Source: Gracilaria domingensis (lineage: Eukaryota; Rhodophyta; Florideophyceae; Gracilariales; Gracilariaceae). From it: a DNA stretch of 64,000 nucleotides. Below the pieces are notes generated by a model. The model was given only the letters and a program-made list of their open reading frames with translations. It did not search any database and was not told where the DNA came from. This document shows positions 11,099 to 39,207 of the stretch, piece by piece. The stretch lies in the NCBI GenBank assembly GCA_022539475.1, contig VCMS01000072.1, positions 124,001 through 188,000 on the forward strand, in the 5' to 3' direction. Within the stretch, counting starts at the first letter, position 1. Each line of letters opens with the position of its first letter. A program made the translations under genes and the position numbers.

Positions 11099-13633
11099 CT
11101 ATCCGCTGTTCCCTGCAACTGGGGACATGCTTGTACCGTGCTGTGGCACAGGAATCCCGGGACTCATCGCCATCGCAAAAGGATGAACGAATGCTTCCGC
11201 CTGCGGCGCTCCGAAACCCTTGCTTGGGGAGAAATCATTAGGGGCTGGATTGAACTGATTTGGATGCTGATTATATACATAGCCGCCGTACATTGGTGGG
11301 GCTGCAGGATACATGACAGGGCCAGCAGGTTGCTGCTGGTAGAAGGTCGGATAAAACTGAGTGGGAACGTGAGTTTGTGCGTTGTTCCCTAACTTCGTAC
11401 ATCCACTGTTCGATAGACCAGGCTTGTCACCCTCCGACTTGCTGTTTTCCGCAGTAATTGCAGAGGTTGCTTCGTCCTGTTGGTTTGGAACGGATGCGCA
11501 CCCATGCGGGGAACCATGAGAGCGAGCCCCTCCCATTCCGTTGGTCGACATCGGAGTGGATACCACAGGCACAGTGTGCTGATGGTACGTTGTGTGCGGT
11601 GGAGGCGGTGCGTAGTAGGAATATGCACCCAAGTTTGGTTCCCCGTAGAAAGGGGGCTGAGGTGCAAACTGAGGATGATACTGTCCGTGAGACATAAACG
11701 GGGGAGCATATGAGTGGTGCGGTTGAGGTAGATGTACACTTGATGGAAGCTGACTAGGCATCATGACAGCTCTGTGATGTTCTGAGCTATCCTTCGAATG
11801 TCTCTTGTTGAAATCAGTGGACTTCGAAGCGGAATTATTGCGCGACTGGGAGTTCTGACTGATTCTTCGCTGTTTGACTTCTGTGTGGTTTTTCGTCAGC
11901 CCCACACCAGTGCTCTCAACAGCAGTGTTAGTCAAAGAGGCTTCTGACTGTCCCCCTCCGTCCTTGCTCTTCGCATCAGTCTCTCGCTTCTTGTTCGAAC
12001 TGGCCTTTATCGTCTTGAGCACTCGTTGAGATTTCTCGCGCGTTGACGATTCGTTCAAAGCGTCCTTCGACGGGACGTTCTCCTTGTCGTATTCTTCTTT
12101 CTCTGCTTGGGGTTCATCTGAGCTCGAAGACTTGGTCGACTTGCCATCCTGAGGTTCAGCATTCCCATTGGCCCGTGCGTTTTGATCTTGTGGTAGTAGT
12201 ACTGAGCTTGGTTCCTCTTCATCGGGGCATTGCTCATCATGACTGATGCCAATCTTTTCTTCAATGAGTAATTTGGCAATCTTCACTTCAGTGGAGGATC
12301 CGAAGATAGATACGGTACGATGAGAACTGTCTCGTTCGGATTCGTTCTTTCCCGTAACCTCGATGATTGCACCGGACCTGTTCTGCATTTCACGTATATT
12401 TGCGCCGTTCTTGCCAATAAGTAAGCCAATATGCTCTGCTGACAATATGAAGGAGTCTTCCTTTCTTCCCTGCGAAAAGGCTCGGCGTCGGATATCGCGA
12501 ATCCTTGATACACTGTCCGACGGATGAACATCATCCCGCCGCGTGTGAAGGGCATCCGGACGAGCTCCCTCGAAGTTACGCAATGACCCCTCGCGAATCA
12601 CGAAATGAATCATGGAACGCGCGCGATCCACTGCTGCTACACTTCCTGATATGATTATCTGCCTCTCCGGACTTTCACCGGCTTCCTCATCTGAGGCGAC
12701 TCTGATCATTGCGCCACTCTTCTGATGCAGCAATCGCAATGTGGTGCCACGTGAGCCAATCACGGAACCAACAGCTGCGCGTGGGATATACATCGCAGTT
12801 GAGTCATCAGCGTCACCAAGGGAAGGATCCCGCGGGGGTGAGGGTGGCGCGTTTTGCAGGATTTCGACAATCAACTGGCGAGCATGAGAGGCCTGTTGCG
12901 CTGTACCGTGAATGGTGAGCAATTTGCGATCTCCTTCAACCTGATCGTTGTGAACAGTGGCATAGGCGCCTGTCTTCTCTTTGATGGACCGAATGGTAAC
13001 GCCACCAGCACCAATAACGAGTCCAATCTTCGTGATTGGAATCCACATCTCTCTAGTTTCTAACGGTGAGTCAGAACGAGTCCGCACAACTTCAAGACGA
13101 CGCTGAATCAGCATACGACAGCGGCTGACAGCATCCTCAGTGCCACTGATACGAAACTTTCTGTCGCGACTAGGATAACTGCGATCCATGGACACGATGG
13201 CATTAGAGGTATTTTGAATGGCCTTGATAGTATCGCCGTGCTTGCCGATGATGAGGCCGACATGTTCAGCGGGCACTACGACAAAATCGTGTGCTTGTGG
13301 TTGCTTTGATTCGGCTTCATGCGGTTGGTCAGCAGAGTCCTCTGAGGGATCGGGTGGGGGAAGATTGGAGCGGGCAACTGTATGTGATGGGGATGAAGGG
13401 GGTTGGCAGTTGACTTCTGAATCTGGAGATTCCGACATCGAGGAAGATGACTCAGTTCGACGGATGACTGCTCGGGCTGGAGAATCGGGATGAGGGTAAT
13501 CGGGTGGTGGCCGCTTCGATGGGAGGGCGGAAGTGGGATTAGACGTGACGCAACGTCGACGAAAGGAGCTTGCTATTTGCCTTGCACGCGAAGGGGGGTC
13601 ATCGAGGGAATGCCGGATGTGCGAAGCTGGCAT
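11099..13633 (-). CDS. Four-KH-domain RNA/ssDNA-binding protein, FUBP/PCBP-like
   Basis: An 844-residue protein encoded without introns and ending in TAG. Four KH domains lie at residues about 116-181, 195-259, 279-346 and 393-461. Each has its nucleic-acid-gripping GxxG loop intact (GKHG at 130, GAGG at 208, GSRG at 293, GKNG at 407). The spacing and number recall FUBP/KSRP proteins, which bind AU-rich or pyrimidine-rich RNA or single-stranded DNA. Residues about 465-640 are charged and Ser/Lys-rich, and the C-terminal 200 residues are rich in Pro, Tyr, Gln and His, a typical low-complexity tail. The start at 13633 precedes a Pro/Ser/Arg-rich disordered N-terminus. The exact target is unknown. 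Confidence 0.92.
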   Translation of the reverse strand: MPASHIRHSLDDPPSRARQIASSFRRRCVTSNPTSALPSKRPPPDYPHPDSPARAVIRRTESSSSMSESPDSEVNCQPPSSPSHTVARSNLPPPDPSEDSADQPHEAESKQPQAHDFVVVPAEHVGLIIGKHGDTIKAIQNTSNAIVSMDRSYPSRDRKFRISGTEDAVSRCRMLIQRRLEVVRTRSDSPLETREMWIPITKIGLVIGAGGVTIRSIKEKTGAYATVHNDQVEGDRKLLTIHGTAQQASHARQLIVEILQNAPPSPPRDPSLGDADDSTAMYIPRAAVGSVIGSRGTTLRLLHQKSGAMIRVASDEEAGESPERQIIISGSVAAVDRARSMIHFVIREGSLRNFEGARPDALHTRRDDVHPSDSVSRIRDIRRRAFSQGRKEDSFILSAEHIGLLIGKNGANIREMQNRSGAIIEVTGKNESERDSSHRTVSIFGSSTEVKIAKLLIEEKIGISHDEQCPDEEEPSSVLLPQDQNARANGNAEPQDGKSTKSSSSDEPQAEKEEYDKENVPSKDALNESSTREKSQRVLKTIKASSNKKRETDAKSKDGGGQSEASLTNTAVESTGVGLTKNHTEVKQRRISQNSQSRNNSASKSTDFNKRHSKDSSEHHRAVMMPSQLPSSVHLPQPHHSYAPPFMSHGQYHPQFAPQPPFYGEPNLGAYSYYAPPPPHTTYHQHTVPVVSTPMSTNGMGGARSHGSPHGCASVPNQQDEATSAITAENSKSEGDKPGLSNSGCTKLGNNAQTHVPTQFYPTFYQQQPAGPVMYPAAPPMYGGYVYNQHPNQFNPAPNDFSPSKGFGAPQAEAFVHPFAMAMSPGIPVPQHGTSMSPVAGNSG

Positions 13634-16618: not shown

Positions 16619-17628
16619 TTACATGTCTTTCTCAAGGTCCTCATCTTCATACTCTTGATCAGCATGCGCACGCAATTTTTCCTCGTATCGGGAACGAGGT
16701 TGTAGAGGATAACCTCGTCGCTCCAACTGCCAGTTACAAAGCATGGCTGCAGTTTGACAGGCAATGGGGAACAGTGATTTCTCGAAAGGCCATCGTCCCA
16801 AAAACAACCGGAAACGGTTGTTGATATATCCGATACCCCACTCGTTCACCATTCGTTGTTTTCTAATACGCTTGTTGTATACCGTTCTATACATCCACGT
16901 CGTGCTCTCGTTTCTTTCATACGGCACAACAAGAGCGCCACTGCCAGCAAAACCCATGTCAGCCAAGCCATGCTGTCCGTTCGACAGAAAAGACTGCGGA
17001 TCACGAAAAACTTTAGAGCTAGTATACAGATTGCGGTCACTTTCTGCGCCTTTATCCGATATTTCGAGGCGTATAAAGCGTCCAAACAGGTCACAAAAAA
17101 CAAGAACCGACCAAGCATGGTCTTTTTGTAGCCATCGTAGGCACGTTCTTGTTCAGAGTTCTTTTTTGGCCTCCACCGCTTGCTTTTGTTTCCATCTAGA
17201 AAAAAGACACACTTCGGGAAACCAATAATTAAACCTTCCATATCCTCCCTTTCTTGTTCGTTGGGCCACCGAATAAGCTTAGGTTCGTGAGCATCTAGAA
17301 CTCTAAACACGGAGTACAGAACATGATGAAAGTAGTTCGAAACCGTTCCTGGAGATACATCGTAGCGGTGCGCAATTCGTTCTACACCTATTCCTCCCTC
17401 GTTGGAACCACCAAAAACATCAAGGAACATGAAGAGCATTTCTTCGGTTTCGAGACGCCTTCGGCGTGGCAGTCGTTGCTCTCCTTCAAAATCATTTCTA
17501 ACATCTACGGGAAGCTCTGGTCTCTGACGGGCTAGGTTGTGAAGATTTCCAAAGTCCTCCCTTGTCATGTGGGTAGTTTTTTCGAACAAGAGAACGTCTG
17601 GATCTTCAAAGCGTATGTTATTATACAC
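16619..17628 (-). pseudogene. Harbinger-like DDE transposase of H2, frameshifted
   Basis: The N-terminal part (from ATG 17628) carries a helix-turn-helix-like segment (GIGVERIAHRYDVSPGTVSN). Then come CVFFLDGNKSKRW (first acidic residue) and RPKKNSEQERAYDGYKK. Near 17090 the frame shifts, after which the other frame gives FGRFIRLEISDKGAESDRN, GLADMGFAGSGALVVPY (second Asp) and MVNEWGIGYINNRF (Glu). All three catalytic positions can therefore be seen across the frameshift. It differs from the H1 and H3 transposases and belongs to another branch of the DDE_Tnp_4 family. Confidence 0.75.
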
Positions 17629-18285: not shown

Positions 18286-19197
18286 ATCACAAAGCTGTCC
18301 CACTCACGTGAGCAGCTTTGTTTCATAGCTTGTACGCCCCCCAATTCCAAAGAACGGGTATTTCAGCGCAGTGGAGCAAAGCCAACAATCCGGACATTAA
18401 CTCATGCTCTTGTACCTATCCGTGTCATTGCAGACCAACTAGAGCGTTCCATCTCGACCATTTATCGCTTTTTGCAGCCACAGAGGTCAAAGAAGAAGCC
18501 GTTTAAGCCAACAAATGCAAGGAAAATATCAACCAGGGCCACAACGCTACTGATTCGACTGGCTTCTACAGATGACTATAGCGCTTCTCAACTGCGTCAG
18601 CGTCTTAACTTGCCCATCACAGTTCGCCCCGTTCAGCAGATACTGCGTGCGCAACCTTATCTCAAGTATCGCAACCACACGATTAGTCCCAGACTGACTT
18701 CAAAACATAAAGAGGCCAGGCTGGTTTGGGCTCGTCGCCACGTAACGAAAGGGGATCTGTTCTGGGTTCGCGTAATATTTTCAGACGAGAAGAAGTTTAA
18801 CGTGGACGGCCCGGATGGTTTTGCTAAATACTGGCACGATTTACGGAAAGAGCCACGGCGCTTCTCTACTCGTCAGAATGGGGGTGGCTCAGTGATGGTG
18901 TGGGGTGCGATTTTGTTTTATGGCGTTTCGGATATTGTCTTTTCGGATGGTAAGCAGAACTCTGAGAAGTACTGTAACACATTGAGGCTGGGTTTGCTGC
19001 CGTTGGTAGCCGACACTTTTGGAGAATCGCATCCATTTATATTTCAAGAAGATAACGCGCCTATCCACACTTCTGCTTTGAGCATGGTGGGAAGGCTATC
19101 AGAAGCCGCTGGTGTGGTCTTGCAAGAACAGTTGGGTCTAGAGGGGTCTGCGGAGCAGATATCAGAGCTACTGCTATTGGAATTTCGCGGACTGTAA
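18286..19197 (+). pseudogene. Tc1/mariner-type transposase, degraded
   Basis: The frame is open from a stop at 18283 to 19197, but the first ATG (18472) falls after the helix-turn-helix (IRVIADQLERSISTIYRFL), so the original start has been lost. Downstream are the second HTH-like part, FSDEKKFNVDGPDG (first catalytic Asp), NGGGSVMVWGAI and FQEDNAPIHTS (second Asp). The expected SPDLNPIEN block with the third catalytic residue is missing, and the last 40 residues are unlike the family, so a deletion or frameshift has removed the C-terminus. Terminal repeats were not found. Confidence 0.8.
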
Positions 19198-19568: not shown

Positions 19569-20769
19569 ATGGAGGATCACGAACTGGGCGTTCCGCCAAC
19601 GTCGATCAACAACGACTAACAGGTCATCAGCAACTCACCACTGACTATCTCTGAACAAATCCCATCTATTACGATAACCATTTTCGCCGCAGGTTTTGCA
19701 TAACACAGTGTTTCTTCAACATGATTTGTGAGACATTACAGCAACGCATTCAATACTTTGTACAAAAACCAGACTGCGCAGAGCTTATTGGCTTCAGTGT
19801 ACAGCAGAAAAGAACATCAGCTCTTCGCCAACTACCCTTTGGCTGTTCCGCTGATAGTGTCGATGAATACGTGCGTATGTCAGAGTCAACAGCATCAGAA
19901 TGCCTCCAAAGGCTTTGTCGTAGTATCGTAGACTGCTTTGCGAACGAGTATCTACGCAGTCCTATTATCTCTTATCTACAAAAGATACTGAATCGCAGCC
20001 GAAGTCTGGGGTTCCCTGGCATGGTGGGTAGTATTGACTGCTCTAAATGGCTTTGTAAAACTTTTGCCGTTGCTTGGCGTTGACAGTACCAAGGTCAACA
20101 AGGCAAACTCGGTTTGACCCTTGAGGCAATTGCAGATAATACTTTTTGGATATGGCATGCATTCTTTGGCACGCCGAAAAGCTCGAATGATATCAACGTA
20201 CTTGAAACATCACCACTTTTGAAAAAGACTGCGAATGGCACTTATCCTCCTAAGGTTTCATATGTTCTCAACGGGAAAGCGCAAAGAGTGCCATACTATC
20301 TTCATGATGGTATTTATCCACCTACCGGATATTTATTGACACAGTTCAGGAGCCCATCTCCAAGAAGGAAAAGGTTCTCGCTGCCAGACAGGAAGGAAGA
20401 AGGAAAGACATTGAACGCGCTTCCGGAGCTCTACAGGGTAAATGGCATATTGTATGGCGACCATCACGATTTTGGAGGGTAGAGAGAATGAGATATGTGA
20501 TGTATTGCTGCATCATTCTGCATAACATGATGATAGAGGAGGGTCTTACGGATGAAGAACCGGGCTGGACAGAGCCAGAAGCATTCGGTGGTCAAGAGGT
20601 TGTTCATATTGGTCATCCTGTTTGGTCTGGGAGCTTCTCGGACAATGTTATTGAAGGATCAATTGCGGCGTTCTGTCAGAAAGATGGTTTTCTGAAGCAC
20701 AAAGAAAGGCAAAGAGCTTTAAAGGATGACGTTATGGAGCATCTATGGTCTTTGCACGGAGACTCATAA
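19569..20769 (+). pseudogene. PIF/Harbinger transposase of H3, broken
   Basis: The HARBI1-type core is clear: DNHFRRRFCITQCFF, ELIGFSVQQKRTSALRQL, SADSVDEYVRMSESTASECL, SIDCSKW (first Asp), a TGA stop near 20081, LEAIADNTFWIWHAFFG, SSNDINVLETSPL (second Asp), YYLHDGIYP, then after a frame change near 20340 RRKDIERASGALQGKWHIV (Glu region) and CCIILHNMMIEEGL. A further stop near 19666 and a frame change before it separate the start from the core; ATG 19569 is the likely start. In ERASG the usual Phe is Ser. Non-functional, but only a handful of lesions. Confidence 0.85.
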
Positions 20770-22542: not shown

Positions 22543-22547
22543 AAAAC
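22543..22547. repeat. Target-site duplication AAAAC, left
   Basis: Identical to 34048-34052 directly outside the other LTR. A 5-bp duplication is typical for Ty3/gypsy integrases. Confidence 0.9.
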
Positions 22548-23117
22548 TGTAGTATAGCTCGGTCGGATCAACGGGGGCGCTACAAGACCAAGTGGTGACG
22601 TCACGGGCTTTCGGGTACGTGTTTCTACTGTACCACGTGGGACGCTAAGCGCAGGCTTAGCAAGGACTAATTAGTTTATTTTCATTAATTTAGAATTAAT
22701 ATTTACTAGGTAGTGTAGATATGTGGCCGGGGTGGTGCACCATAAATGCACCTCCCGGTGGCCCACGTGGCACTAGGCCCGTGAGACCGGAGTGGCGCTC
22801 GAGTGTACTAAACCCCCGAGACGCCGACCTCCCACACCAAGTGGTAAAGTCAAGCACCAACTAGGCTCATTCGACACCAGTTCGGTTCTACAGTCACCAA
22901 TTGGTAAGTCTAGCGGTCCTCTATTAGTTTTGCTGGCCTCGAGGGTGATACGTGCCTGCCGCACACCAGTGCAGGCGTATTTACCACTTGGTCACCGTGC
23001 TCTACAGGCAACAGCGGGTGCTGCCGACCTATTAAATGTCAGGCGTTTCATTCCTCCGCAGGGTCGAGCCCACGCAGGACTCCCCACTCACAGCTCGCAC
23101 CGATGGGTTATACCACA
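22548..23117 (+). repeat. 5' LTR
   Basis: A 570-bp long terminal repeat starting TGTAGTATAGC and ending TTATACCACA. It matches 33477-34047 with about 5% differences. It holds an AT-rich patch at 22670-22712 that could carry the promoter, and six copies of CCANNTGG. One copy differs in its centre between the LTRs (CCAATTGG here, CCACTTGG there) while its arms are kept. Confidence 0.95.
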
Positions 23118-23122
23118 TACTT

Positions 23123-23140
23123 TGGTCTCCCGACTTAGAA
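23123..23140 (+). promoter_or_regulatory. Primer-binding site
   Basis: TGGTCTCCCGACTTAGAA begins 5 bp after the LTR. TGG pairs with the CCA end of a tRNA, and the rest would pair with its acceptor and T stem. The tRNA species was not identified. Confidence 0.6.
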
Positions 23141-23387
23141 TTTGTGGAAAACCAAGTGGTTTTGGAAAGGGAGGATTTGGAAGTCACGAGATACCCGAGT
23201 GGTTTGGTTCCCGTTGCCGAAGCAATTTGCTCCGACACCAGTTACCTAAATGGAGAAACGGGGCGTGCGTCACTCGAAAAGGGCGCCGAGCGCTCCACCA
23301 AGTGGCCACCCCGTACGGAAATCAGTGTCCTACCCGGTGTTGGATAACCCGGAGAACCTGATTCGGAAGGAACGCCCACCGAGGTGA

Positions 23388-25517
23388 AAGAAGGTAGACC
23401 GAGAGGCTGGGGGCCCCTCGACCCTTCCCCGGGCTGACCAAGTAAACGGAGGAGCAGGCTCTGCAACGGAGGAGCCTGCTCCTGTAACAACCCCAGTGGT
23501 AGACCAAATGGAGGTGCCAGTCGGGCCGCGACTGGACCTGGACGAGGTCACCCGAGTGGTAGTTGATCGAACCTCCCAGAAGGTCCTCGACAAGGTACCC
23601 GTGGTGATGTTACAGTACCTAGAGAACGAGGTACGAGGACACATCGACCGATTGGTTATGCTGGCTCTGCAGCAGCAGGGGGCTAAGCTTCAACCTGAGA
23701 TGATGGCCCAGGCCGCCCTCATGAAGCATGCTCCCTTGCCAGCTGTAGATGCCACGAAACCACTTGGTACTCTCCATCCTACCCTTCCTACACAACCGAT
23801 TGGTGAAGGATTTATTGACCGCATGGGGAAAGGGGCAGAGCCTCCTGGCATGGAGGGCCCGAGGTACGTATACTTCCCCCAACCCACTGGTGTAGCTCTG
23901 TCAGGACCAAATGGTGAAGACCCTGACGGAGATTCGTCGAGCTCAGGAGACGAGCGTCGACGTAAACCAAATGGTAAGAAGAAGAAAAAAAAAGGGGAAA
24001 GAGAAGGAGTCGCCGGTTGGACTCGGACTCTTCGTCCTCAGGCACCGATTCGCATTCGTCAGGAGACGACGACCGTAAAGGTTCACGAGGCAAGAGGAAG
24101 GACTCTCGCCAGAAGAAAGGAAAGAATGCCCGCAAGGGTAAGACCGAAAGGTATAATGATTCGGACACAACTTCCGACGAATAGACTGACCTAGAGGTGC
24201 TTACACCGCTTAACGACTTATTCACCAAAGCGGTTGACTATCGTACCTATAGGTTGGAGAACAGGCAGGCTGTGTATACCAAAGAAGTAGCTCAGAAGAT
24301 AACGAAGCATCATAGGAAGCTTTCGCTTCCAACCGGGTGAGACTCGCTTTAGCGGGGATGACCATATGGCGATCATTGATTTCCTTCAAAGGTTCAAGAT
24401 CGCTTGTGACCAGAATGGATTTTCAGAGGCAGCAGCCATGCGGTTGTTTCAATTCTACCTAACTGGTCAAGCTGGAGCGTTGCTCCATAGCCGCCTCCAA
24501 GGAAACACCATGGCGGTGGACGAAGACGAAACGGAAATGTTGACGACATACCCACAATTGGTTAACTTTCTACTGGAAACCTAAGCGACCGATGAGGTAA
24601 TTCAGGAGGCGTACTCAGAGATGCTTGCGTACCGCCAGCGCGCGGGACAAACCGAATTGGAATTCGCTCGCTCCCTGTGGGCATTAGCCTCCCGCTGTGG
24701 GAGTATCTTTACTACCAAGAGGTTGAAATCGATGTACGTCGACAACGAGGCGAAATCTATCCGATCACAGGTAGGTAAATACCTAGCCACCAACCGCACG
24801 GTTGACTACAACGCACTTGCCTGACATGCACAGGGGCTAGGTGACACCGTCCGGTCAGGCGCCAGGAAAGACTCCGCACCACTTGGCAAACCATCGAAGG
24901 AGAAAGGAAAAACCAGGCAGTCAGTGTTTGACGTAGAGGAAGAGGAGACCACTACGGATGAGGCATCCACACAGTACGCCTCCCAGGGTCACACAGTCTA
25001 CTTGGTGCATGCACAACCGACAACTAGATCGCACGGTAACACCTCTTGGTCCAGCTCGCTATCCAGCGAGCCACCCTCGAGGCAAACCTCAGCTCCACCA
25101 TCACAGGTATCCGTACCGGTCAGTCCGGCTCTAGCGGTGCCATTCAACCAATATGTTGATAGAGGACCACCCCCGCAGCAACGGAGTGTAGCACCGACTG
25201 GAGGTCGTCCCCCATCACGCGCGCCGTCGCTCGCGATAAAGGACCCCACAACCGGTAATCTCCTATGTTGGTTCTGTTTATCCCCTCACCACTTGGCAAC
25301 AGCGTGCCCGAGTGTAGCTCCGCAGAACAGGAACGCTCTCCTGACTGATAGCCAGCAGAACCACCAGGATATATTTGGGCCTACAGCGCGGAGCACAGGC
25401 ACGGGACACGCAAATGCGCGCCCCAATGCAGCCACACCTCATCAGGTACACATCATTACGGAGCAGGACCAAACGGAGTCTGCCCCGCAGGCGGAAAACG
25501 CCGAACAGTTGGGATAG
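23388..25517 (+). pseudogene. Gypsy gag, broken
   Basis: Structural polyprotein that forms the particle and packages RNA. The frame carrying DQMEVPVGPRLDLDEV is open from 23388. It is lost at an A-run near 23990, where the next frame gives DSDSSSSGTDSHSSGDDD and, past a TAG at about 24182, LTPLNDLFTKAVDYRTYRL. It returns near 24310 with a capsid-like segment (FSGDDHMAIIDFLQRFKIAC, LFQFYLTGQAGALLHSRL). In-frame stops follow at about 24582 (TAA) and 24822 (TGA). A CCHC zinc knuckle, CWFCLSPHHLATAC, is encoded near 25269-25310. The start codon is uncertain. It overlaps the pol frame near 25375-25517, so a programmed frameshift may once have linked them. Confidence 0.8.
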
Positions 25518-28500
25518 GGGCTCCCCCAACTGTCCGAATGTAGAAGGCCTTCCAGAACCAAGTGGTGCAAGTATGGACAATTACCCATTGGTTACAGAAG
25601 AAGAGAGCCTCATGGATGGCACCGAACCCATATGCTTCCTCACGCATAGTAACTATAAGGTAAACGTCAGCCTCGGGTTTACTTCTAATCACTTGGTACC
25701 ATGCGTCACTGTCCTGGACACCAGGGCAGGACCTAATCTGGTGAATGCCAAACTACTAACTAACAGACAACTTAATAAGCTTCAGCCATGTACATTAACT
25801 AACCCTCTGGTTGACGCCAATAACAGACCATTAACCGTCATGGGCGCGCTTACCATAATGGTATTGATTGACACCATGAAGTTCCGAGTCCGTTTCATAG
25901 TCGTAAATCAACTGGCAACAGACTGTATCCTCGGGACGACCTTTATAGACCAGCACGTCAGAGCGATTTTCCTACGCTCTAAGACGGTGCAGTTCCACAA
26001 TGGTCCTCGTATCGCCATCGTTGGTAACCACAAGGGTGCCTCTCCCACGGGGAAAAGCATTCGCCACCAACCCGTTCCGGAAAATACAGTCTCCAACAAG
26101 GTGCGACTGGCAAAAGCGGTAACGATACCGCCTATGAACCACTTGGTAGTGAAAGTGACATGCCAACAACCTGGTTCGTTATCTAGTCAGAACTACTCAG
26201 GGTTGGCCGAACGACATATGACCTTAATGGCAAATGGTATAGTCGATAACATACCAACAAAACCGTTTCAGGTCTACCTCAGTAACTTCAGCAACCGCCC
26301 GGTTAAGTTGCCAAAGCACACCGTAACTGGTCTGGCATCACTGGCTGCTCGTACGATCTTTACGATCAAACCGCAATGGTCCCACGAGGTCGTGGAGTGT
26401 AAGAAGGGGGGAGGCAGTGCCAATTCGCCGCAAACAGACCATATGGTGCAGCGACTAGCTGAGCAAGAAGATCCGAAACTGGAGCTCGACCCAGTGACCA
26501 ATTGGAAAACGGAAGTAAATATAGGACTTGAAGGGGAAGAGCTCAGAGCTCGGATCCTCGGACTCTTGGAGCCATTCAGTGCCATGTGGTCTGGTAAACT
26601 GGGAGCCATTAAGGCCACCCAGCATAGGATTGACCTCAAACCAGACTCCCGTCCCATTCACCAACAGCCATACCGCGCGGGACATAAGCCCCGTGAGGTA
26701 GAGCTGGAGGAGGTGGAACGGATGCTCCGCGAGGGGGTTGCAGAGCCAGCAAACTCGGAATGGGCTAGTCCCGTAGTGCTAGTCCAAAAACGAGGAGAGA
26801 CCCGTATGAGGTTCTATATTGACTACAGAAAGCTCAACGCCGTAACGGTGAGGGACTCATACCCCATCCCGAGGATGGACGAATGCATCCACTCCCTAAT
26901 AGATGCGAACATATTCACCACACTGGACGCGAACTGCGGCTACTGGCAGATCGAAATACCAGAGGGTGATCGTGATAAGACTGCGTTTACATGCCATGCA
27001 GGCCTGTATCGCTTCTTACGTATGCCCTTCGGTTTGCAAAACGCCCCAGCTACCTTCCGAAGAGCATTAGACATCATACTGTCTAAGGTGAAGTGGACAA
27101 CCGCATTGGTATACATAGATGACGTAGTCATCTACTCGCGATCCATTGAGGAATACTTCTCACACGTCCAAGTGGTATTGCGGTTGCTACAGGAGGCAGG
27201 CTTGACACTCAAACTCCGAGAGCGTATGTTCTTCAACCAAGAGGTAGAGTACCTAGGGCATACAATTAGCCCCGGGAAACTCAAAGTGACCAAACGGAAT
27301 ATCCCAGCGGTACAGGAAGCGAAGCTCCCTACGTCGCAGACGGACATACGATCCTTTATAGGTCTATGTAACGTCTATCGGCGGTTCATTAAGGGTTTTG
27401 CAAAGATAGCTGCACCCCTGAACCGGAGGTTGCAGAAGGGGCAACCCACACACTTCGACCACTTGGAAGAAGACGAGTTAGAGGCTTTCCACACACTGAA
27501 AACAGCGCTTTTCTCCCCACCGGTACTGGCACTGCCCAAAACGGGACTCCCGTATACGCTGGACACAGACGCGTCGGACGCCCAAATAGGTTGCTGCCTC
27601 ATGCAGGAACAGGAAGATGGCAAGCTCGCACCAATTGGGTACTGGAGTAGAGCTCTGAACCAAGCAGAGCAGAACTATACCGTAACGGAGAAAGAATGCT
27701 TAGCGGTTGTTTGGAGTATGCTCATGCTACGTCCTTACCTATATGGTGTGCGCTTCACGCTTCGAACGGATCATGACTCCTTGAGGTGGATACTAGGGTT
27801 AGCGGACGCACTGGGTCGTATGGCCCGATGGTGCCTAAGACTCACGGAGTTGACTACGATGTGCAGTACCGCCCCGGGGTCAAGCACCGAGTGGCGGATG
27901 CAATGTCCCGGTTGAATACCGAAGGATTGGACATTGACCCAGTGGACGACGACATTCCATGTTTTACAATAAAATCAGCGAACCACGAGGTCAAGGAAGT
28001 TCTGGAGGGATACTGGCATGATGACAGTGCGTACCAAGTGGTAGTGGAGACTCTCCTCCCTGTGGAAGAAGGAGAACACGCTCCAATCACCCGTGAGGAA
28101 TTCCTACGCGAACAATCGGCAGATAGGTTGTGCAAAACGCGCGCTGACGTAATAAGAAAGAAGGATTCTCAGTTTGACGTCGACCACAATGGGTACCTCA
28201 TCAGACGCTCACCTTTAGACGGAGCTCTCCAGAAGGTCGTACCTGAGTCATTAAGACAAAGGGTGTTGTATTTGTCACACAACCCAAGGCTTTCGGGACA
28301 CCCTGGAGCCACAAGGTTGTATTATACCCTTCGGAGGCAATTCTACTGGCCGCACATGGCTAACGACGTATATACCTATGTGGTTCAGTGTAATTCGTGC
28401 ATTAAGACCTGAGGTGGTGTGAGGAAGCACAGGAAGTACCTGAAGCTATTCCCGGCGGCGGGGCCGCTGGAATTCGTCGCGATCGACATACCGGGGCCCC

Positions 28501-29807
28501 TGCCAAAGACCTCGGAGGGTTTTCGCTTTGTAGTAGTCATAACCGATAGGTTAACGAAGCTCACCAGGGCCATACCCCTGAAGAACCAAACGGCAACGAC
28601 ACAGGCGACAGCCTTCTTGGAGGACTTGGTCTACCCATACGGTGCTCCTATATACCTACTGACCGATAATGGTTCGAACTTAGCTTCCAAGTTCTTTGAG
28701 GCGGTTTGCACCATGCTAGGGGTCAAACACTACTTCACCACGGCCTATCATCCGCAAACAAACGGCCAAGTGGAACGGTTCAATAAGACCCTAGTGGCAC
28801 GCCTACGGCACTATGTCGAAGAGCACCAAACCACATGGTCAGAATACGTGCAACCATTGACATATGCGTACAACCTCCACGTCCACAGGGTCCCCCAAAC
28901 AACCCCGTTTGACCTGGTACTTTCACGAACACCACACGGCATTATCGTCCAGCTCGGACCCGACCGCTTGGAAGCGGCAGGGACACTCACAACTGCGAAG
29001 GTGAAGCGAAACATACTCCGGAAGTTACGCGCCGCTTTGGCTGCTGCCAAAGTCAAAATGACAGCAGCTCAAGAACGGTGTAAAGCAGATTATGACCGAA
29101 CGGTGAGCAGAGTAACCAAAGTGGTAGCGGGAGACATGGTCTTCATCGACGTACCACCAAAAGGTAAGCGACCGACCCCAGCGGAAATGGAGGAAGACAT
29201 TCGCATTGAGGAGGATATCAATTCCAAACTACTACCCAAGTCGACGGGACCATATGAGGTGATTTGCTTCGATGAGCATACCGCTACGGTCATAATGGAT
29301 GGCTTGGAGAACACCGTCTCCATCAACAGGATTGCCAAGGCCGCACAAATGACGGCACCGCATACACAACCAATAGGTGAGCCAACTCAGAGGGAAAGGC
29401 AAAGGGACCAAACGTCTTCCATAGCCCCTCCTCCGACGAGTCGGGCGAGCGATCAACCTTCCACCAGGGCCGTAACGGCTGACCCGACGACCCAAGAGGC
29501 ACAGGAGATCGAGCCACTGCGAGACCAACAGGTCACGCCACCCACGGAGAGCCACGCCCCCCACGACCAAACGGAAGAGTCACACCCTCAAGTAGACACT
29601 CAGGAGTGTGTTATTAACACCATTGTAGGTCACGAACTCACCACAAATGGTATCCGCTACAGGGTAAGATGGTACGGATGGTCGTCAGAGTACGACTCTA
29701 TGGAACCACCAGGTCATATCCCTAACAATTTCATCATCCGATACTGGCGCAAACAGGGGCGAACGCCCCCACCAACTGGTACTGCTTCGCGTGGTACGCG
29801 TCGCTAA
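25518..29807 (+). pseudogene. Gypsy pol: protease, RT, RNase H, integrase, chromodomain
   Basis: Nearly intact enzyme polyprotein. The protease motif is LDTRAGPNLV, where family members have D-T-G: the Gly codon at 25723 is AGG (Arg), which should abolish activity. Reverse transcriptase spans about 26650-27260 with RFYIDYRKLN and YIDD at 27112-27123. RNase H starts at DTDASDAQIG near 27560. One frameshift occurs near 27850. The integrase has its HHCC zinc region (LSHNPRLSGH...CNSC) ending at a TGA (28410), then the catalytic triad D (28484), D (in LTDNGSN) and E (in GQVERF). A chromodomain (YRVRWYGWSSEYDSMEP) closes the protein near 29605-29760, marking a chromovirus-like lineage that targets modified histones. 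Confidence 0.92.
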
Positions 29808-29986
29808 GGAGAGGGGGGTTTGTTTAAGCCTTTGAACGCCAAACGCCACATGAAATGATAACTAGCCTAACAGGAAAAGGGAACCAGATCATAACGCACA
29901 ACGCAAGACACTTTATTAGTCAAAGACGGGCCCACAAGCGATAACCACTGGGTAACCGAGGAGGCCTTGGAAGACCCACGGCCACG

Positions 29987-31107
29987 TCAGCGTCCACGAC
30001 TGGTTCCACGACCGCGACCACGTCCACGGGAGGTCCAACGTGACGAAGCGGAACCCCCACGGCCAGGGGACACGGACATAGGTCCGGCGGAGCTTCCGGC
30101 CCCGCCGCTAGCCGCGCTCGCTGGCGCACCACCACTTGGTAATGAAGCAGAAGCAGCAGGCTCCGCGGGGTTACCGCTGCTAACTACCGGCAAGGTGTTC
30201 GCAGGACCAGTAGGTGGATGGAAGGAAGGCGGCAAGCTAGCCGGAGGAATACCACTAGAGGCCGGTTTAGGAGCAAGACCGCTGGACGGCCCTGCACCAG
30301 GGGCCAGACCAGGAGGCGCTCCAACTTCCGAAGGTCCAGAACCAGCACCTGTCATCGGAGCGCTGGACGACGACGGAAGCGGACCCGAACGGAAACCAGT
30401 TTGGAAACCACTTGGTGCTCCCGCCCCAGTACTTGCTGGAGGAAGAGGAACGTTATGAGGACCAAGCAGTGTATGAAAGGGTGCGGAAGGATTGGCACCA
30501 GGAGGTCCACCAGGCGGTTGAAACGTACCAAGGCCACCAAAGCCTACCATCGGGGTCGCAGGCTGCTGCGACGCAGGAGCGTACGGGTTGAAACCTTTCC
30601 CAGGGGGTCGATGTAGCGGCGCGTGACCTTCCACGAGATCGCTCAACTGACCAACATAGGCTGTCATCTCACGGTAGAGATTGCGCTGAAAGTAGTCGCG
30701 GAACTGCCGCAGCTCGCTAGTGCGCCGCTTGTGGTGAGCGACTACCGGGAGCAAGTTGGTGAGAGTATTCACAGCGGTGAGGATGTCATTTGGACCAAGA
30801 GGGTTGAAGTGCACCATCGAGGCGTGGTTGAGACGAGCCAGGGCGCTTCGTATCGCGCCACTATCACCACCAGGGGGTACCGGGTTCACCGGAAGCGACT
30901 GGAAACCAATCCGAAGAGGCCCCTGGGAGGCCCGTCCGGGAGGATGAGCAGCTGCCTGAGGGTCTGCTGGACCACTTGGGACAGGCACAGCACGCTAGTC
31001 AGAGGAGTGGCTTGTACGGGCGCCGACGGAGGCAACGCGGGGGACTCATAGTTCTCGGCAGCCACCATCACGGTATCTTCATTACCAAATGGGTCTTCGC
31101 CAGCCAT
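29987..31107 (-). pseudogene. Antisense gene B inside the gypsy element, frameshifted
   Basis: Minus-strand frame from ATG 31107 (MAGEDPFGNEDTVMVAAEN), shifted once near 31000, then open to TGA at 29987, about 370 residues in total. A helical segment (LTAVNTLTNLLPVVAHHKRR, RQFRDYFQRNLYREMTAYVG) is followed by a long Gly/Pro/Ser/Ala-rich stretch and an RG-repeat end (RGRGRGRGTSRGR), which often binds nucleic acid. I do not recognise the family. It points away from the 3' LTR, opposite to gag-pol, so it must be read from an internal or 3'-LTR-side antisense promoter if it was ever expressed. Confidence 0.5.
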
Positions 31108-31215
31108 GTGCTGCTATTGGAGAGCCACGATGCTATGAACCTCCGGGTCGTAGACATCCCAACCATGTTCAGGCCCCCAACTGTGGTTACTGACCGCCTT
31201 AAGGGAGCTTTCCAA

Positions 31216-32715
31216 CTACTTCGCTGTATATTTGGTGCCCCCAACGATCTTGGAGAGCCCTATGGCACGAATGTGGCCGACCACATCATTGGGAATGTTG
31301 AAGATGCGACCAACTGGTTGAGTTCCGCTGATCCCAACAGACTTGTCAGGGCAGCGCGTGTCCCAAGTCACACCTTCCACGGACGCCTGAAGGGCGAGGA
31401 TAGCCACCATAACGGCCCACTCGCTGCGCGCGACCGACCAAAAGACATATGCGTTGTTCCTCTCGAGGGAGGTGCTACTACCAAAGAACCCAAGTACCGG
31501 CGGGGTCGGCACTTCCAGCCACTGACATACTTCAAAGTGGTCCCACCAAGAAGGTCGATTGACATACCATGCCCGGCGGTTCTGGTCGCTCTGTGACGAA
31601 TACTCAACGTTGTGGAACAGAAACATTGTCCGCGTACGGTTGTTACGGTGACGAACACGGCTCTTTGCCATCGCGTCGGTCGCCCACCTCCCATGGTGAG
31701 TCCAATAATTGGTATCTAAAGGGCGCTCAAACGCGACGTACTCCAGATCGATCTCGAGGTGTGTAGCAGGTTCGTCCAAGAGGTGAAGGATATCTATCAA
31801 ACGGCGGAAGTAGTAGACCTCCCCATCGCAGCGGATGAAGGGGAGATCCGACGGTATGGCCACGGGGATGTAGTATCGGAACTTCGTGTGCCGCTGTCGC
31901 GCGTGGAAACACTGTTGTCGACCGACCCGGCTCTGTTTCCCGCCCTAGCGCGGTGGAGGCGGCGCCATAGGCCCCGCTTTCAACCGTCGACAATCCCAAC
32001 GGGCAATCGTAGTATACTGCGTGAGACCCATGTGGCGGAACCGCAAGGGGCAGAAGGAGGAACTGATGTAGAAAGGCCAGTTCCCCAGAGCGACCAATTC
32101 GGCAGAGATATCGGCAAAGCGTGCACCATAGTGGGCATGCGGCTGCCCGTTCTATCTGTTAAAGTCATGAAGATTCCGCTGTTGAGCTTTCACCGTACCG
32201 GTGACCGCAAGAGGATTGACGTTGCTCGGACCGGCGAAGGCCGCAAAAGGATCATACCCACCGCGACCGTACGGGTCTTGACGAGAGCGTGTACTCGACC
32301 GCGTGCTAGGCTTGGAGATGCCCCCGCCACGGCCGCGCGCTACCCCAGGGGTCTTGTCGGAAATTCTCGACCGGACGACAGCGGTTTCGCGGACCGAGCG
32401 GTTGGCCTCCAGTGAGGGGGAAACTTCAGAAGCAGAATATCTCTTTATAGGGTCGTAGTACGGCTCCTCCATTACCAATTGGTTGGCCACCACAGAAGCC
32501 TGAGCGCCCGATGGAACGGACACGGGTGTACCGGCCTGGGACGGCAGACAAAGCTGCGAAGAATCAACCACGTGGTAACTCGATTGAAACGGCGCTGTCT
32601 CACCCCCGTGGTCTGCCACATTGGGAGGGGCGGGAGCGACACTCTCTTCAGCACCGCCTTCACGGCATTCGAACGTCATTGACCACCCCGTTGGGGAAGC
32701 TGGTCGATCACCCAT
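31216..32715 (-). pseudogene. Antisense gene A inside the gypsy element, three amber stops
   Basis: One minus-strand frame from ATG 32715 (MGDRPASPTGWSM) runs 500 codons to 31216. The interruptions at 32152, 31945 and the end at 31216 are all TAG. The first third is Ser/Pro/Arg-rich with an RGRGGG patch. The remainder looks like a folded domain rich in Trp, Tyr and Phe (FRYYIPVAIPSDLPFIRCDG, YYFRRLIDILHLLDEPATHL, SWWDHFEVCQWLEVPTPP). No known retroelement domain was recognised. It is followed directly by antisense gene B, and the two may have been one gene. Confidence 0.5.
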
Positions 32716-33464
32716 GAGGTATGAAAGGCGCGAGGTGGAGCGGGAGCGTGCCACGGAGGATACCAACCGCGAAGGAGAAACCGGAGCGAAGGTAAGACAG
32801 ACAGTAGAAAACGAGAACACCACCAATTGGACGACCAAACGAGACTTGAAGGGCCACGGAGAAAGGGCAAGCCGCTCGAGTGAGCTGACACACAGTGAGA
32901 AGGACCAGATTGGTGCGCCGATTAAGCGGGTTCCGTGAACAAGAGAGGCCACAACCACCCCAGAAGGAGCCCCAGGGACGAAAGAGGACCAAGCTGGTAA
33001 CGAAGGATAGGAACCATACCACGAGGGAGCGGCGTGCCGATCGGTTGACAACTGCGAACCCCACCGACGGGAAGCACGAGACCAAATGGTAAGCCGGTAC
33101 TAAGCCGTCCAGGGAGAGGACGGATAGGCGGAAGTGAGACGAGGGGCTCCTCCGGTAGGAGCCAAAGGGGTGAAAACAACCACGTGGTACCGCGCACGAC
33201 AGGATCAGCCTGAATGATCGCGTTCCGCGGTTTCTCGTTCCAATACCACAAGGAAGGTAAGGGACGATCGCACATACCGCACGGGGGGGCACTGCAACGC
33301 GAGTAATGGCGCTACAGTGCATGTTGCGGACCAAATCAAACGCCGCGCCACCTTCGCGTCATCGCGAGACGCGCCGTGTGCCAGGCGACGTGCACCAACG
33401 ACCCTTTGGTGAAAAGGCGGCAAACGCCGTGAGGGTTCCACAGCCACGGTGCGTGCCTGTCGGT
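32716..33464. other. Gypsy region between antisense gene A and polypurine tract
   Basis: About 750 bp without a convincing coding region on either strand. It holds further ACCANNTGGT palindromes (33081, 33179). It would contain the promoter of the antisense genes, if they have one. Confidence 0.4.
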
Positions 33465-33474
33465 AGGAAGGGGG
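33465..33474 (+). promoter_or_regulatory. Polypurine tract
   Basis: AGGAAGGGGG two bases before the 3' LTR, the expected primer for plus-strand DNA synthesis. Confidence 0.75.
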
Positions 33475-33476
33475 TC

Positions 33477-34047
33477 TGTAGTATAGCTCGATCGGATCAA
33501 CGAGGGCGCTACAAGACCAAGTGGTGACGTCACGGGCTTCCGCGTACGTGTGTTTACTGTACCACGTGGGACGCTAAGCGCAGGCCTGGCAAGGACTAAT
33601 TAGTTTATTTTCATTAATTTAGAATTAATACTTACTAGGTAGTGTAGATATGTGGCCGGGGTGGTGCACCATAAATGCACCTCCCGGTGGCCCACGTGGC
33701 ACTAGGCTCGTGAGAGCCGGAGGGGCGCTCGAGTGTACTAAACCCCCGAGACGCCGACCTCCCACACCAAGTGGTAAAGTCAAGCACCAACTAGGCTCAT
33801 TCGACACCAGTTCGGTTCCAAAATCACCACTTGGTAAGTCTAGCAGTCCTCTATTAGTTTTGCTGGCCTCGAGAGTGATACGTGCCTGCCGCACACCAGT
33901 GCAGGCGTATTTACCACTTGGTCACCGTGCACTATAGGCAACGGCGGGAGCTGCCGACCTATTAGGTGTCACGCGTTTCATTTCTCCACAGGGTCGAGCA
34001 CACGCAGGGCTCCCCACTCACAGCTCGCACCTATCGGTTATACCACA
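33477..34047 (+). repeat. 3' LTR
   Basis: A 571-bp partner of 22548-23117, starting TGTAGTATAGC and ending TTATACCACA. It is followed by the AAAAC target duplication at 34048-34052. Confidence 0.95.
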
Positions 34048-34052
34048 AAAAC
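34048..34052. repeat. Target-site duplication AAAAC, right
   Basis: Matches 22543-22547 on the other side of the gypsy element. Confidence 0.9.
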
Positions 34053-37743: not shown

Positions 37744-38099
37744 CTGACTGCAGCATTGCCTTGGGCGGCTTGCCTTCACTTTGACAGCGACGTTGCACGG
37801 GAAATGTTGGAAACATTGGTAGACTCAGTGACTGCTCTGCAACATGCCCTCGCGCAGCATCTGCTCCGAATGTTCCGTGAGCGCGTGCGCGGATTGGTGG
37901 CGCATTTGTCTCCACGCTGGTGGACGCCTAGCTGTACAGCTGCAGCGCGCGCGCGGACCACACTGCGGCAGAGGCGGTGTCCAGCTGTGAGGTGCTCAGC
38001 GCGACGTATCGCCCAGCGGCTCGCAGCGCGGCGGCAACGTACGGCGGCAGCAGATGCGCCTAGCGATGCGACTCTAGGACCAGCGACGATGTGCGCGCG

Positions 38100-38818
38100 C
38101 CGCCGCGCTCTATTTGGACGAGACTCTGCTGTTCGCCGACAACCCGCCCTGGATGACGTGCCACCCCGCGCGCGCCGACCGGCGCGTCAGGCTGGTCAGC
38201 GCGTGGTGGCGCGTTACGATGCGCTACGCCAGGTGCATTGCGCGCGCGCGGGCATAGTGCACCGGCTGGACAAGGGCACCTTTGGGATCATGATCGTCGC
38301 CAAGACGCGAGGCGCACACAAGCGCCTGTCGGTGCTGTTCGCCGCGCGGCTGGTCCACAAGGATTGGACGGCGCTCACCGTCCACGACCCATACTTGCCG
38401 GGCTGCATTTACACTACCATCGAGCAGACAATCTGCTGCCACCCCGAGGACCGCATGCGTATAGCGATTGTGCGGCGCGAGCGCGGTGGCTGCCGCGTAC
38501 AGAACGTGGTGCAGACGGTACCGCACGCACCAGACCCGCTTAAATCTGCGCCACAACCTCACGGCCGCCGTGTTTTGCGACGAGCGTCACGGCCGGCGCG
38601 ACGTCAACGCGCGCTTCGCATTGCTCGCCGCGCGATCCATGCTGCACGCCTGCTACTTGCAGCTGATGCACCCCTTCTCCAAGCAGCCGCTCGCCGTCAC
38701 CGCATCTCTGCAACATGCCCACATGCTCGGCGTCATCAGCGAGCCCATCGATGCCGCTCTCAATCTGCACGCGCTGCTCGCCACGGCGCCCCTGCCGGGC
38801 TCCGCATACGCACGGTGA
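38100..38818 (+). pseudogene. RluA/RluD-family pseudouridine synthase, frameshifted
   Basis: RNA-modifying enzyme that isomerises uridine. The N-terminal piece, in one frame near 38105-38240, reads YLDETLLFADNPPWMTCHPA, the usual nucleotide-binding strand ending in HPA. The next frame gives the catalytic motif GIVHRLDKGTFGIMIVAKT with the active-site Asp at 38269-38271. After another shift near 38540, RSMLHACYLQLMHPFSKQPL gives the C-terminal core. Two or more frameshifts make it non-functional. Upstream sequence from about 37760 is too scrambled to assign. It lies in a GC-rich island unlike the DNA on its left. Confidence 0.75.
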
Positions 38819-39207
38819 TGGGTGGTCGCGCAGCCGCACCATGGCCGCCAGCTGCGGTCTCTGCGACATCGTGGCCAGAGCGGGTGATAGCACCGCCGCG
38901 CGCTCCCCGCACCCGCACCCACCCCCGCCGCTGCAGTCGCGGCGCACGTTGCAGCCAATGCAGATATTTTGCGCACATGGGCGTAGCACGGCGCGCGCGC
39001 TGCTTTGGCACGCTCCCGCGCTTATATTTGCGCTATGCGCGCGACCGGCTGCTGAAATAAATAAGTGCACGTCAAATCTCTTACACACGTGACCGCGCCT
39101 CGTTGCCGCCGCCCCAACCGCTACGAATCTCGCGTCTGCGACCGCGTCCGGCGCGCGGCATACAGCCTGCGTCGTTTGGCCTTCATCCCCGCCCTCACCC
39201 CCACCCC

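Follow-up and report, generated by a model that had tools for sequence, protein, structure and literature searches.

Introduction

In Drosophila gypsy, the insulator sites bound by Su(Hw) are repeated in a cluster within one untranslated stretch, and dispersed packaging signals in the form of RNA stem-loops have been proposed for single-stranded RNA viruses. This article concerns a dispersed palindromic motif, ACCANNTGGT in its full form and CCANNTGG in its core, within a retrotransposon with long terminal repeats (LTRs) of the red alga Gracilaria domingensis. The element occupies positions 22548-34047 of the window, that is, the whole stretch of 64,000 nt that was analysed (contig VCMS01000072.1, positions 124,001 to 188,000). 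It shares with Drosophila gypsy the repetition of sites inside a gypsy-type element, whereas its sites cover the LTRs, gag, pol and an antisense block, so that the insulator analogy drawn in an earlier, sequence-only reading of this stretch is not upheld. With the viral packaging signals it shares many weak, degenerate sites running through a coding genome, with the difference that the outer base pairs of the sites show no compensation.

The closest published analogy found, also named in that reading, is the VANC/VANDAL anti-silencing system of Arabidopsis, in which a protein encoded by the transposon binds a motif and strips DNA methylation. According to the account of these motifs in PMC5735166, VANC21 binds YAGTATTAY, which is dense only in VANDAL21, mainly in non-coding DNA and in tandem repeats, related VANC proteins have different motifs in one genome, and motif density is thought to be relevant to recognition. 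The present case resembles that account in having a short, family-specific motif that is dense in the element and rare elsewhere, although specificity is here a preference, with overlap between families A/B and C (defined below). VANDALs are Mutator-like DNA transposons, whereas the element studied here is an LTR retrotransposon. Furthermore, YAGTATTAY is described as tandem, in one orientation and mainly non-coding, whereas the present sites are single palindromic dyads of variable spacing in unique sequence, lying in coding DNA in all three frames. By this comparison, the case would share the logic of VANC/VANDAL without being a member of that system, and the analogy suggests a function as self-marking against silencing.

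A further parallel is offered by the Retand LTR retrotransposons of plants, whose antisense TRP28 genes, located between pol and the 3' LTR, are predicted by the author to bind DNA (PMC11963269). The likeness lies in a long region between pol and the 3' LTR with an antisense gene. In contrast, TRP28 corresponds to PF04195 while the antisense proteins described here have no Pfam match, Retand is given as a non-chromovirus lineage while a chromodomain-like tail is present here, and the part of PMC11963269 that deals with these genes names no dispersed target motif for Retand. In the open-licence PMC literature, a scope outside which most subscription journals lie, no LTR retrotransposon was found to be described with a motif of this kind.

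The element was compared with its relatives among 94 scored reverse transcriptase (RT) matches in the 77.9-Mb assembly of 680 contigs, which also served for all genome-wide counts. The window copy is referred to as A1 and the main subfamily, with 94-95% protein identity in RT, as A2; B denotes the copies L066 and L067 (72-73% protein identity) and C the copy L065 (61%).

Abundance and Spacing of the Sites

The element contains 25 ACCANNTGGT and 44 CCANNTGG sites, as against 3 and 6 in the remaining 52.5 kb of the window. Read from the sequence and without strand, the full sites lie at 22587-22596, 22836-22845, 22896-22905, 22983-22992, 23151-23160, 23759-23768, 23906-23915, 23966-23975, 25557-25566, 26138-26147, 26438-26447, 28033-28042, 28830-28839, 29771-29780, 30131-30140, 30407-30416, 31309-31318, 32474-32483, 32567-32576, 33081-33090, 33179-33188, 33516-33525, 33766-33775, 33826-33835 and 33913-33922. 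The sequence-only reading had given 24 full and about 40 core sites, and 23 of its 24 positions are exact; its 23965 should be 23966, the site at 26438 was missed, and the full sites elsewhere in the window number three (2759, 47675 and 50195) rather than two. Two finer claims of that reading stand as made: the LTRs share one site with different centres and identical arms (AT at 22896, CT at 33826), and a related site, CCAAGTGGAACGG, occurs at the integrase Glu codon (28766, GQVERF in frame).

The excess is larger than had been claimed. Dinucleotide shuffles of the element yield 0.25 ACCANNTGGT sites on average (maximum 2 in 300 shuffles) and 4.2 CCANNTGG sites (maximum 12). When codons are shuffled among synonymous positions in seven A1 coding pieces, 2.6 full sites are expected and 14 observed, with 25 against 8.2 for the core; together with the occurrence of sites in all three coding frames, this supports the earlier view that protein constraint is no explanation. 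In a ranking of gapped 4-mer pairs (gaps 0-12, pairs occurring at least 6 times), ACCA-N2-TGGT is the most over-represented pair in the element (25 vs 1.1). Genome-wide, 4164 sites of the ACCANNTGGT type were counted, compared with 1620 for the reversed control.

The full sites are the A..T subset of the N4 class of a wider motif, ACC-N(4-6)-GGT, of which A1 with its 3' LTR holds 107 sites (59 N4, 35 N5 and 13 N6). Without the 3' LTR (10.9 kb), the counts of ACC-Nk-GGT for k=0-8 are 4, 6, 1, 3, 53, 33, 13, 9 and 6, with 6.9 expected at each spacing, and in B (9.4 kb, 7.8 expected each) they are 6, 2, 5, 2, 47, 58, 18, 11 and 3, giving a total of 123 at k=4-6. Elsewhere in the window no peak is seen at k=4 or 5 (7 and 7 vs 8.0), with 14 sites at k=6. 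Sites are present in every region, at 5.3-12.3 per kb in A1 and 7.5-16.2 per kb in B, which bears out the earlier statement that they occur in LTRs, gag, pol and the antisense block; the LTRs are site-rich, with 12.3 per kb both in A1 and in the LTR part of B. The densest region counted is the stretch that follows pol in B (L066:7078 to L069:1918, C38), with 38 ACC-N(4-6)-GGT sites in 2.34 kb.

The codon-preserving null is likewise exceeded by the wider motif, with 42 sites in A2 pol against 9.7 (maximum 18 in 1000) and 81 against 22.8 in the sum of five B pieces, two of which overlap by 110 bases; the N7-9 controls lie near expectation except in one B piece (8 vs 2.2). Genome-wide, N4 sites number 21944 against 18689 for the reversed control and N5 sites 22778 against 21629. 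Among the 94 scored RT matches, 67 stand at 85% or more, and it is estimated that elements with some 50 N4 sites apiece can account for the genome-wide N4 excess.

Helical or nucleosomal phasing of the sites was not detected. In A1 the spacer begins with A or C in 24 of the 25 ACCANNTGGT sites, and 9 ACCANNAGGT stand against 1 ACCTNNTGGT; a strand-directional motif was considered and rejected, since B (L066) has no such bias and the innermost spacer bases mirror each other, for which reasons the bias in A1 is read as base composition. An array of E-boxes for a basic helix-loop-helix protein, the identity proposed in the sequence-only reading, was also rejected: sites of the form CANNTG that are not part of CCANNTGG occur at 2.26 per kb in the element, compared with 4.36 per kb in the remainder of the window, and conservation follows ACC..GGT at spacings of 4, 5 and 6 bases, not CANNTG.

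Conservation of the Half-Sites

A1 was aligned with A2 pieces covering 22548-24400 and 25010-33476, with 24401-25009 left out, and conservation was scored by spacing for k=0-12, with the 3' LTR excluded and flanks of 10 bases. With both LTRs counted, 24 of the 25 ACCANNTGGT sites are kept, the sole loss being the site at 30407-30416; changes amount to 1/200 in the arms, 6/50 in the central NN and 57/600 in flanks of 12 bases. Similarly, 46 of 50 ACC-N4-GGT sites are kept (arms 4/300, 12-base flanks 121/1200), and for k=4-6 pooled, 85 of 93, with 9/558 changes in the arms, 43/428 in the spacer and 195/1860 in the flanks. Taken by spacing, arm and flank changes are 4/300 vs 104/1000 at N4, 5/180 vs 63/600 at N5 and 0/78 vs 28/260 at N6, while at the ten other spacings only 22 of 47 sites are kept and 25/275 arm positions are changed.

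The pattern recurs in B, where the sites of L066 give 6/126 in the arms vs 42/420 in the flanks at N4 and 9/246 vs 89/819 at N5, and those of L067 give 2/108 vs 44/360 and 7/234 vs 88/779, respectively. At four-fold positions, 4/67 are changed in arms and 172/976 elsewhere in the coding pieces of A2 and A1, and 3/75 and 146/688, respectively, in B. These comparisons show that the half-sites are under purifying selection between lineages and that the spacers and flanks are not. The expectations that other family copies would carry the excess and that the arms would be conserved beyond synonymous sites are borne out, the former by the counts in A2 pol and B and the latter by the A1-A2 and B alignments and the four-fold positions.

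Variation within A2 was examined in 28 copies, without the window copy and without L031, whose 5' part is unalignable. At N4-6, the 264 arm positions have 8 singletons and 8 shared changes, and the 3876 other positions 150 and 130, respectively; the absence of a singleton deficit in these arms speaks against a mutational cold spot. The dependence of conservation on spacing is the stronger argument on this point. On the sequence evidence, the sites constitute a real, selected, dispersed dyad code, for which a reader and a function are proposed below. The earlier suggestion of a dispersed binding site is upheld as to a dispersed and selected site, with protein binding remaining a proposal.

Turnover and Family Preference

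The pol region of A2 (L006) differs from B by 29-41% of bases, depending on the piece. When 14 A2 core sites (L006) were placed on B, a single one was found as the same site, with changes of 27/84 in the arms and 131/313 in the flanks; when the 14 A2 and 6 B core sites, which are the class that the placement covered, were set on each other, one full site coincided. Positional homology of the A and B sites was rejected on this count of 1/14. Site density has been kept in the diverged family B, where it is higher than in A, with few of the placed core sites in common.

Family C, counted in a single 6-kb piece of one copy, has no ACCANNTGGT within that piece and 6 ACC-N4-GGT against 2.2 expected. 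Its preferred form is CCG-N2-CGG (CCGNNCGG), with 26 sites vs 4.9, and CC-N4-GG and CC-N5-GG reach 67 and 65 against 39.4. Codon shuffling of C pol leaves this excess in place (CCGNNCGG 21 vs 5.7, maximum 13 in 1000; CCG-N2..4-CGG 36 vs 14.3), with control spacings at 6 vs 8.7. In family C, the innermost spacer base is most often a G at the 5' end and a C at the 3' end, whether k is 4, 5 or 6. A, B and C share a CC-N(4-6)-GG frame, and the difference between the families is one of preference and is not absolute.

Proposed Mechanism and Candidate Reader

The explanation considered best, that dyads dedicated to the element are read by a dimer and mark the DNA of the element, is given a rough probability of 0.5. 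Its steps are inferred and stand in falling order of certainty, from dimer reading through an element-dedicated protein to coating in cis. Approximately 100 two-fold symmetric sites, 5'-ACC(A)-spacer-(T)GGT-3', distributed over the LTRs, gag, pol and the antisense block, would be recognized in double-stranded DNA by a protein dimer, each subunit contacting one half-site and the dimer tolerating a change of 1-2 bp in the distance between half-sites. The reader would be a product of the element family or a protein dedicated to it, a step suggested by the shift of the preferred half-site with family within one host. By coating element DNA in cis, it would allow the element or its cDNA to be distinguished from host DNA, and the coating would most likely leave the element accessible to transcription, in the manner of VANC on VANDAL elements.

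The leading candidate reader, and only a candidate, is the product of the antisense gene between pol and the 3' LTR, found on the minus strand at 29987-33099 in pieces at 29987-30994, 31216-31944 and 32152-33099, with 27 ACC-N(4-6)-GGT sites in the region. In the copy seen, a stop divides the A antisense reading frame into parts of 522 and 374 codons, which are in the same frame. The ratio of nonsynonymous to synonymous substitution rates (dN/dS) between A1 and A2 is 0.32 and 0.25 for the antisense gene and 0.15 for pol, consistent with an antisense block that encodes a protein under selection. Neither antisense piece of A has a Pfam match; the 522-aa piece (A2) matched no PDB chain and had no homologue at E 1e-3 among 7992 candidates scored from a search of 5.8 billion proteins, and AlphaFold gave no usable model of the antisense protein (mean pLDDT 28.6). 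The C-terminus of the A antisense gene (A1 29987-33099, minus strand; L068:994-3687) is rich in Arg and Gly. In C, an antisense open reading frame (ORF) of 250 aa follows pol (L065:3-752); its Arg-Gly-rich tail resembles that of A, and the ORF itself does not align with its counterpart in A (best E 0.95).

A broader form of the proposal is put forward tentatively and is held to be rather doubtful. Each gypsy family of the clade might possess its own "address code", consisting of a cognate dimeric protein, with the antisense gene as candidate, and about a hundred matching dyads in synonymous or non-coding positions; protein and code would change together (ACC..GGT in A/B, CCG..CGG in C), each family would mark its own DNA, and B might borrow the protein of another.

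Several observations weigh against dimer-read, element-dedicated dyads. All data come from one genome, and C is represented by its one piece. The long antisense ORF is missing from the one B copy examined, even though B has the motif of A, so the gene is either not needed in cis or not the reader; either B makes use of the protein of A, or the sites are read by something else, such as Gag, integrase or a host protein. The codes also overlap: C pol shows a mild excess of ACC-N4..6-GGT under codon shuffling (10 vs 4.2), and a milder CCG excess is present in A1 (CCG-N2-CGG, 12 vs 3.8) and in B (CCG-N3-CGG, 14 vs 2.2). This overlap between the half-site preferences of A/B and C lowers confidence in the element-dedicated reader and in the broader "address code", and a host factor gains somewhat in probability.

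The conservation evidence has its own weak points. Scored from A2, the contrast between arms and flanks is weaker (N4 12/334 vs 106/1117, N5 9/192 vs 59/640, N6 6/114 vs 40/380). In B, N6 is not significant from either copy and N7 is nominally significant (0/36 vs 14/120 and 1/42 vs 18/140). At four-fold positions, control-spacing pairs give 0/17 in A and 5/24 in B, so that the small A control provides no separation. The cold-spot control within A2 is indecisive as a whole, since, unlike the N4-6 sites, full sites (8 examined; 5/1792 in arms vs 34/6720 in flanks) and core sites (15 examined; 4/2520 vs 91/12600) do vary less in their arms, and a degenerate old copy, L070, has 0 full sites yet an N4-6 sum of 22 vs 7.8. 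Finally, a spacing that varies would be expected of hairpin loops and is seldom found with a rigid dimer, the bases that close the loop are complementary more often than under independence (81 vs 64.2 over four tables), and A1 has an excess of compensated changes at the inner two bases of the half-sites (64 vs 38.1), with no such excess in B (34 vs 32.3).

If a retrotransposon does write a self-recognition motif through its coding sequence, its synonymous sites are strongly constrained in a way that codon models do not take into account. Sequence-specific self-marking would then extend beyond the VANDAL DNA transposons, and a testable system of co-evolution between transposon and reader would be available outside plants and animals, with one host, three families and two versions of the site. 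A simple scan, in which gapped half-site pairs are counted by spacing and their conservation is then scored by spacing, could expose such codes elsewhere.

Alternative Explanations

The alternative that survives best, though an unlikely one, is a host DNA-binding protein with a role in transcription, boundary formation or replication, which the elements would exploit by accumulating its sites for transcription or for escape from heterochromatin. Such a factor would account for a site that A has in common with B, where no antisense gene was seen in the single copy available, for the overlap of the A/B and C preferences on one CC-N(4-6)-GG frame and for the site-rich LTRs. It fits less well with the preference of C for another half-site in the same host and with the modest genome-wide excess at N4 and N5, and sites throughout gag and pol would be unnecessary for a promoter or enhancer role.

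Less probable still are RNA stem-loops in the genomic RNA, with an ACC/GGU stem and a loop of 4-6 bases, read by Gag as dispersed packaging signals. Spacings of 4, 5 and 6 bases with a sharp lower limit and a gradual upper tail are hairpin-loop-like, and the loop-closing complementarity and the compensated inner changes of A1 point in the same direction, the latter without counterpart in B. The remaining base-pair statistics argue for DNA. The outer bases A and T are near-independent (A..T 191 vs 172.8, A1 and B, k=4 and 5), there is no excess of other Watson-Crick pairs at the outer position (35 vs 37.0, A1 and B, N4 and N5), and outer-base variants that are mismatched are tolerated as well as G.U ones. 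Wobble variants of the stem with a 5' C-to-T change are not tolerated (A1 14 vs 17.3, B 15 vs 16.5), and Watson-Crick pairs directly outside the site are scarce, with 29 vs 48.5 in sum and values below expectation in each of four tables (A1 and B, N4 and N5). This scarcity in A1 and B would be consistent with an avoidance of longer palindromes.

The innermost spacer base mirrors its partner, with asymmetry p values of at least 0.17 in all six tables of A1 and B and of 0.40, 0.34 and 0.04 in C; positions farther into the spacer are somewhat asymmetric, which is consistent with base skew. Inverted repeats without CC/GG stand at 0.85-1.29 of expectation at these loop lengths, the commonest C form, CCG-NN-CGG, would need a 2-base loop and is sterically barred as a three-pair hairpin, and no Rfam match was found. 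Since the half-sites are mirror-symmetric without compensating outer pairs, a site in double-stranded DNA, read by a dimer, would be favoured over an RNA hairpin at odds of about four to one, a matter of judgement.

Composition, codon use or a mutational cold spot constitute a very improbable explanation. The element is indeed rich in ACC and GGT (331 and 253), and within A2 variation is lower in the arms than in the flanks of full and core sites, a tendency that does not hold for all N4-6 sites; the counts are nevertheless refuted by the dinucleotide and codon-preserving nulls, and the same half-sites at other spacings are neither enriched nor conserved in A.

Spread by copying, in which a unit bearing the motif would be duplicated in tandem or propagated by gene conversion, is the least credible of all: VANC motifs are described in PMC5735166 as having accumulated in this manner, but Tandem Repeats Finder at its default score finds no tandem repeats in the element, the LTR pair accounts for the only repeats of at least 40 nt found, and base preferences around the 25 sites are weak.

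Structure of the Element

The sequence features assign the element to the Ty3/gypsy LTR retrotransposons, probably with a chromodomain-like integrase tail: the LTR pair has TG..CA ends and a target-site duplication, and RT precedes integrase. The duplication, AAAAC, lies at 22543-22547 and again at 34048-34052, as read from the sequence. The 5' LTR (22548-23117, plus strand; 7 ACC-N(4-6)-GGT sites) and the 3' LTR (33477-34047, plus strand), delimited by LTR comparison, are 94.7% identical. The gag region at 23388-25344 (plus strand), whose frames are interrupted, contains 21 sites and a zinc knuckle, CWFCLSPHHLATAC, recognized by eye, with no Pfam match. A lysine-rich stretch was observed in A1 gag, and B gag (L066:445-1797) has a Ser-Arg-rich stretch with a sub-threshold SR-25 match (E 9.4e-6).

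The pol frame is interrupted in A1. Its first part, at 25345-27915 (plus strand, 18 sites), covers protease, RT and RNase H, with Pfam matches to RVT_1 and RT_RNaseH and with the protease of A1 placed by position only. The integrase zinc-binding domain (Integrase_H2C2) follows at 27777-28412 (plus strand), in a frame that is broken relative to the preceding one in A1, and the frame at 28413-29807 (plus strand) encodes the integrase core (rve) and the putative chromodomain. The Chromo match at the integrase C-terminus reaches 23.6 bits in A1 (E 4.8e-5) and 21.6 bits in B, both below the cut-off of 25.1, and PF00385 appears in the precomputed domain lists of many relatives.

Other Features of the Window and Neighbourhood

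The product of a gene with a KH domain (11099-13633) has 72% identity to a protein of Agarophyton chilense, 60% to one of Gracilariopsis chorda and 81% to an unnamed transcriptome protein, matches that point most probably to a gracilarialean host. Pieces of Harbinger/PIF-type transposases were seen at 19655-20083 (Pfam Plant_tran) and, by eye only, at 16846-17628, and a Tc1/mariner-type transposase-like ORF was likewise recognized by eye only at 18472-19197. Also by eye only, a copia-type RT/RNase H-like ORF was observed adjoining the B element (L069:2273-3448), and the ORF at 37756-39060, in a G+C-rich stretch (0.67 at 38-40 kb), was found to carry an HRLDK motif as in RluA-type pseudouridine synthases.

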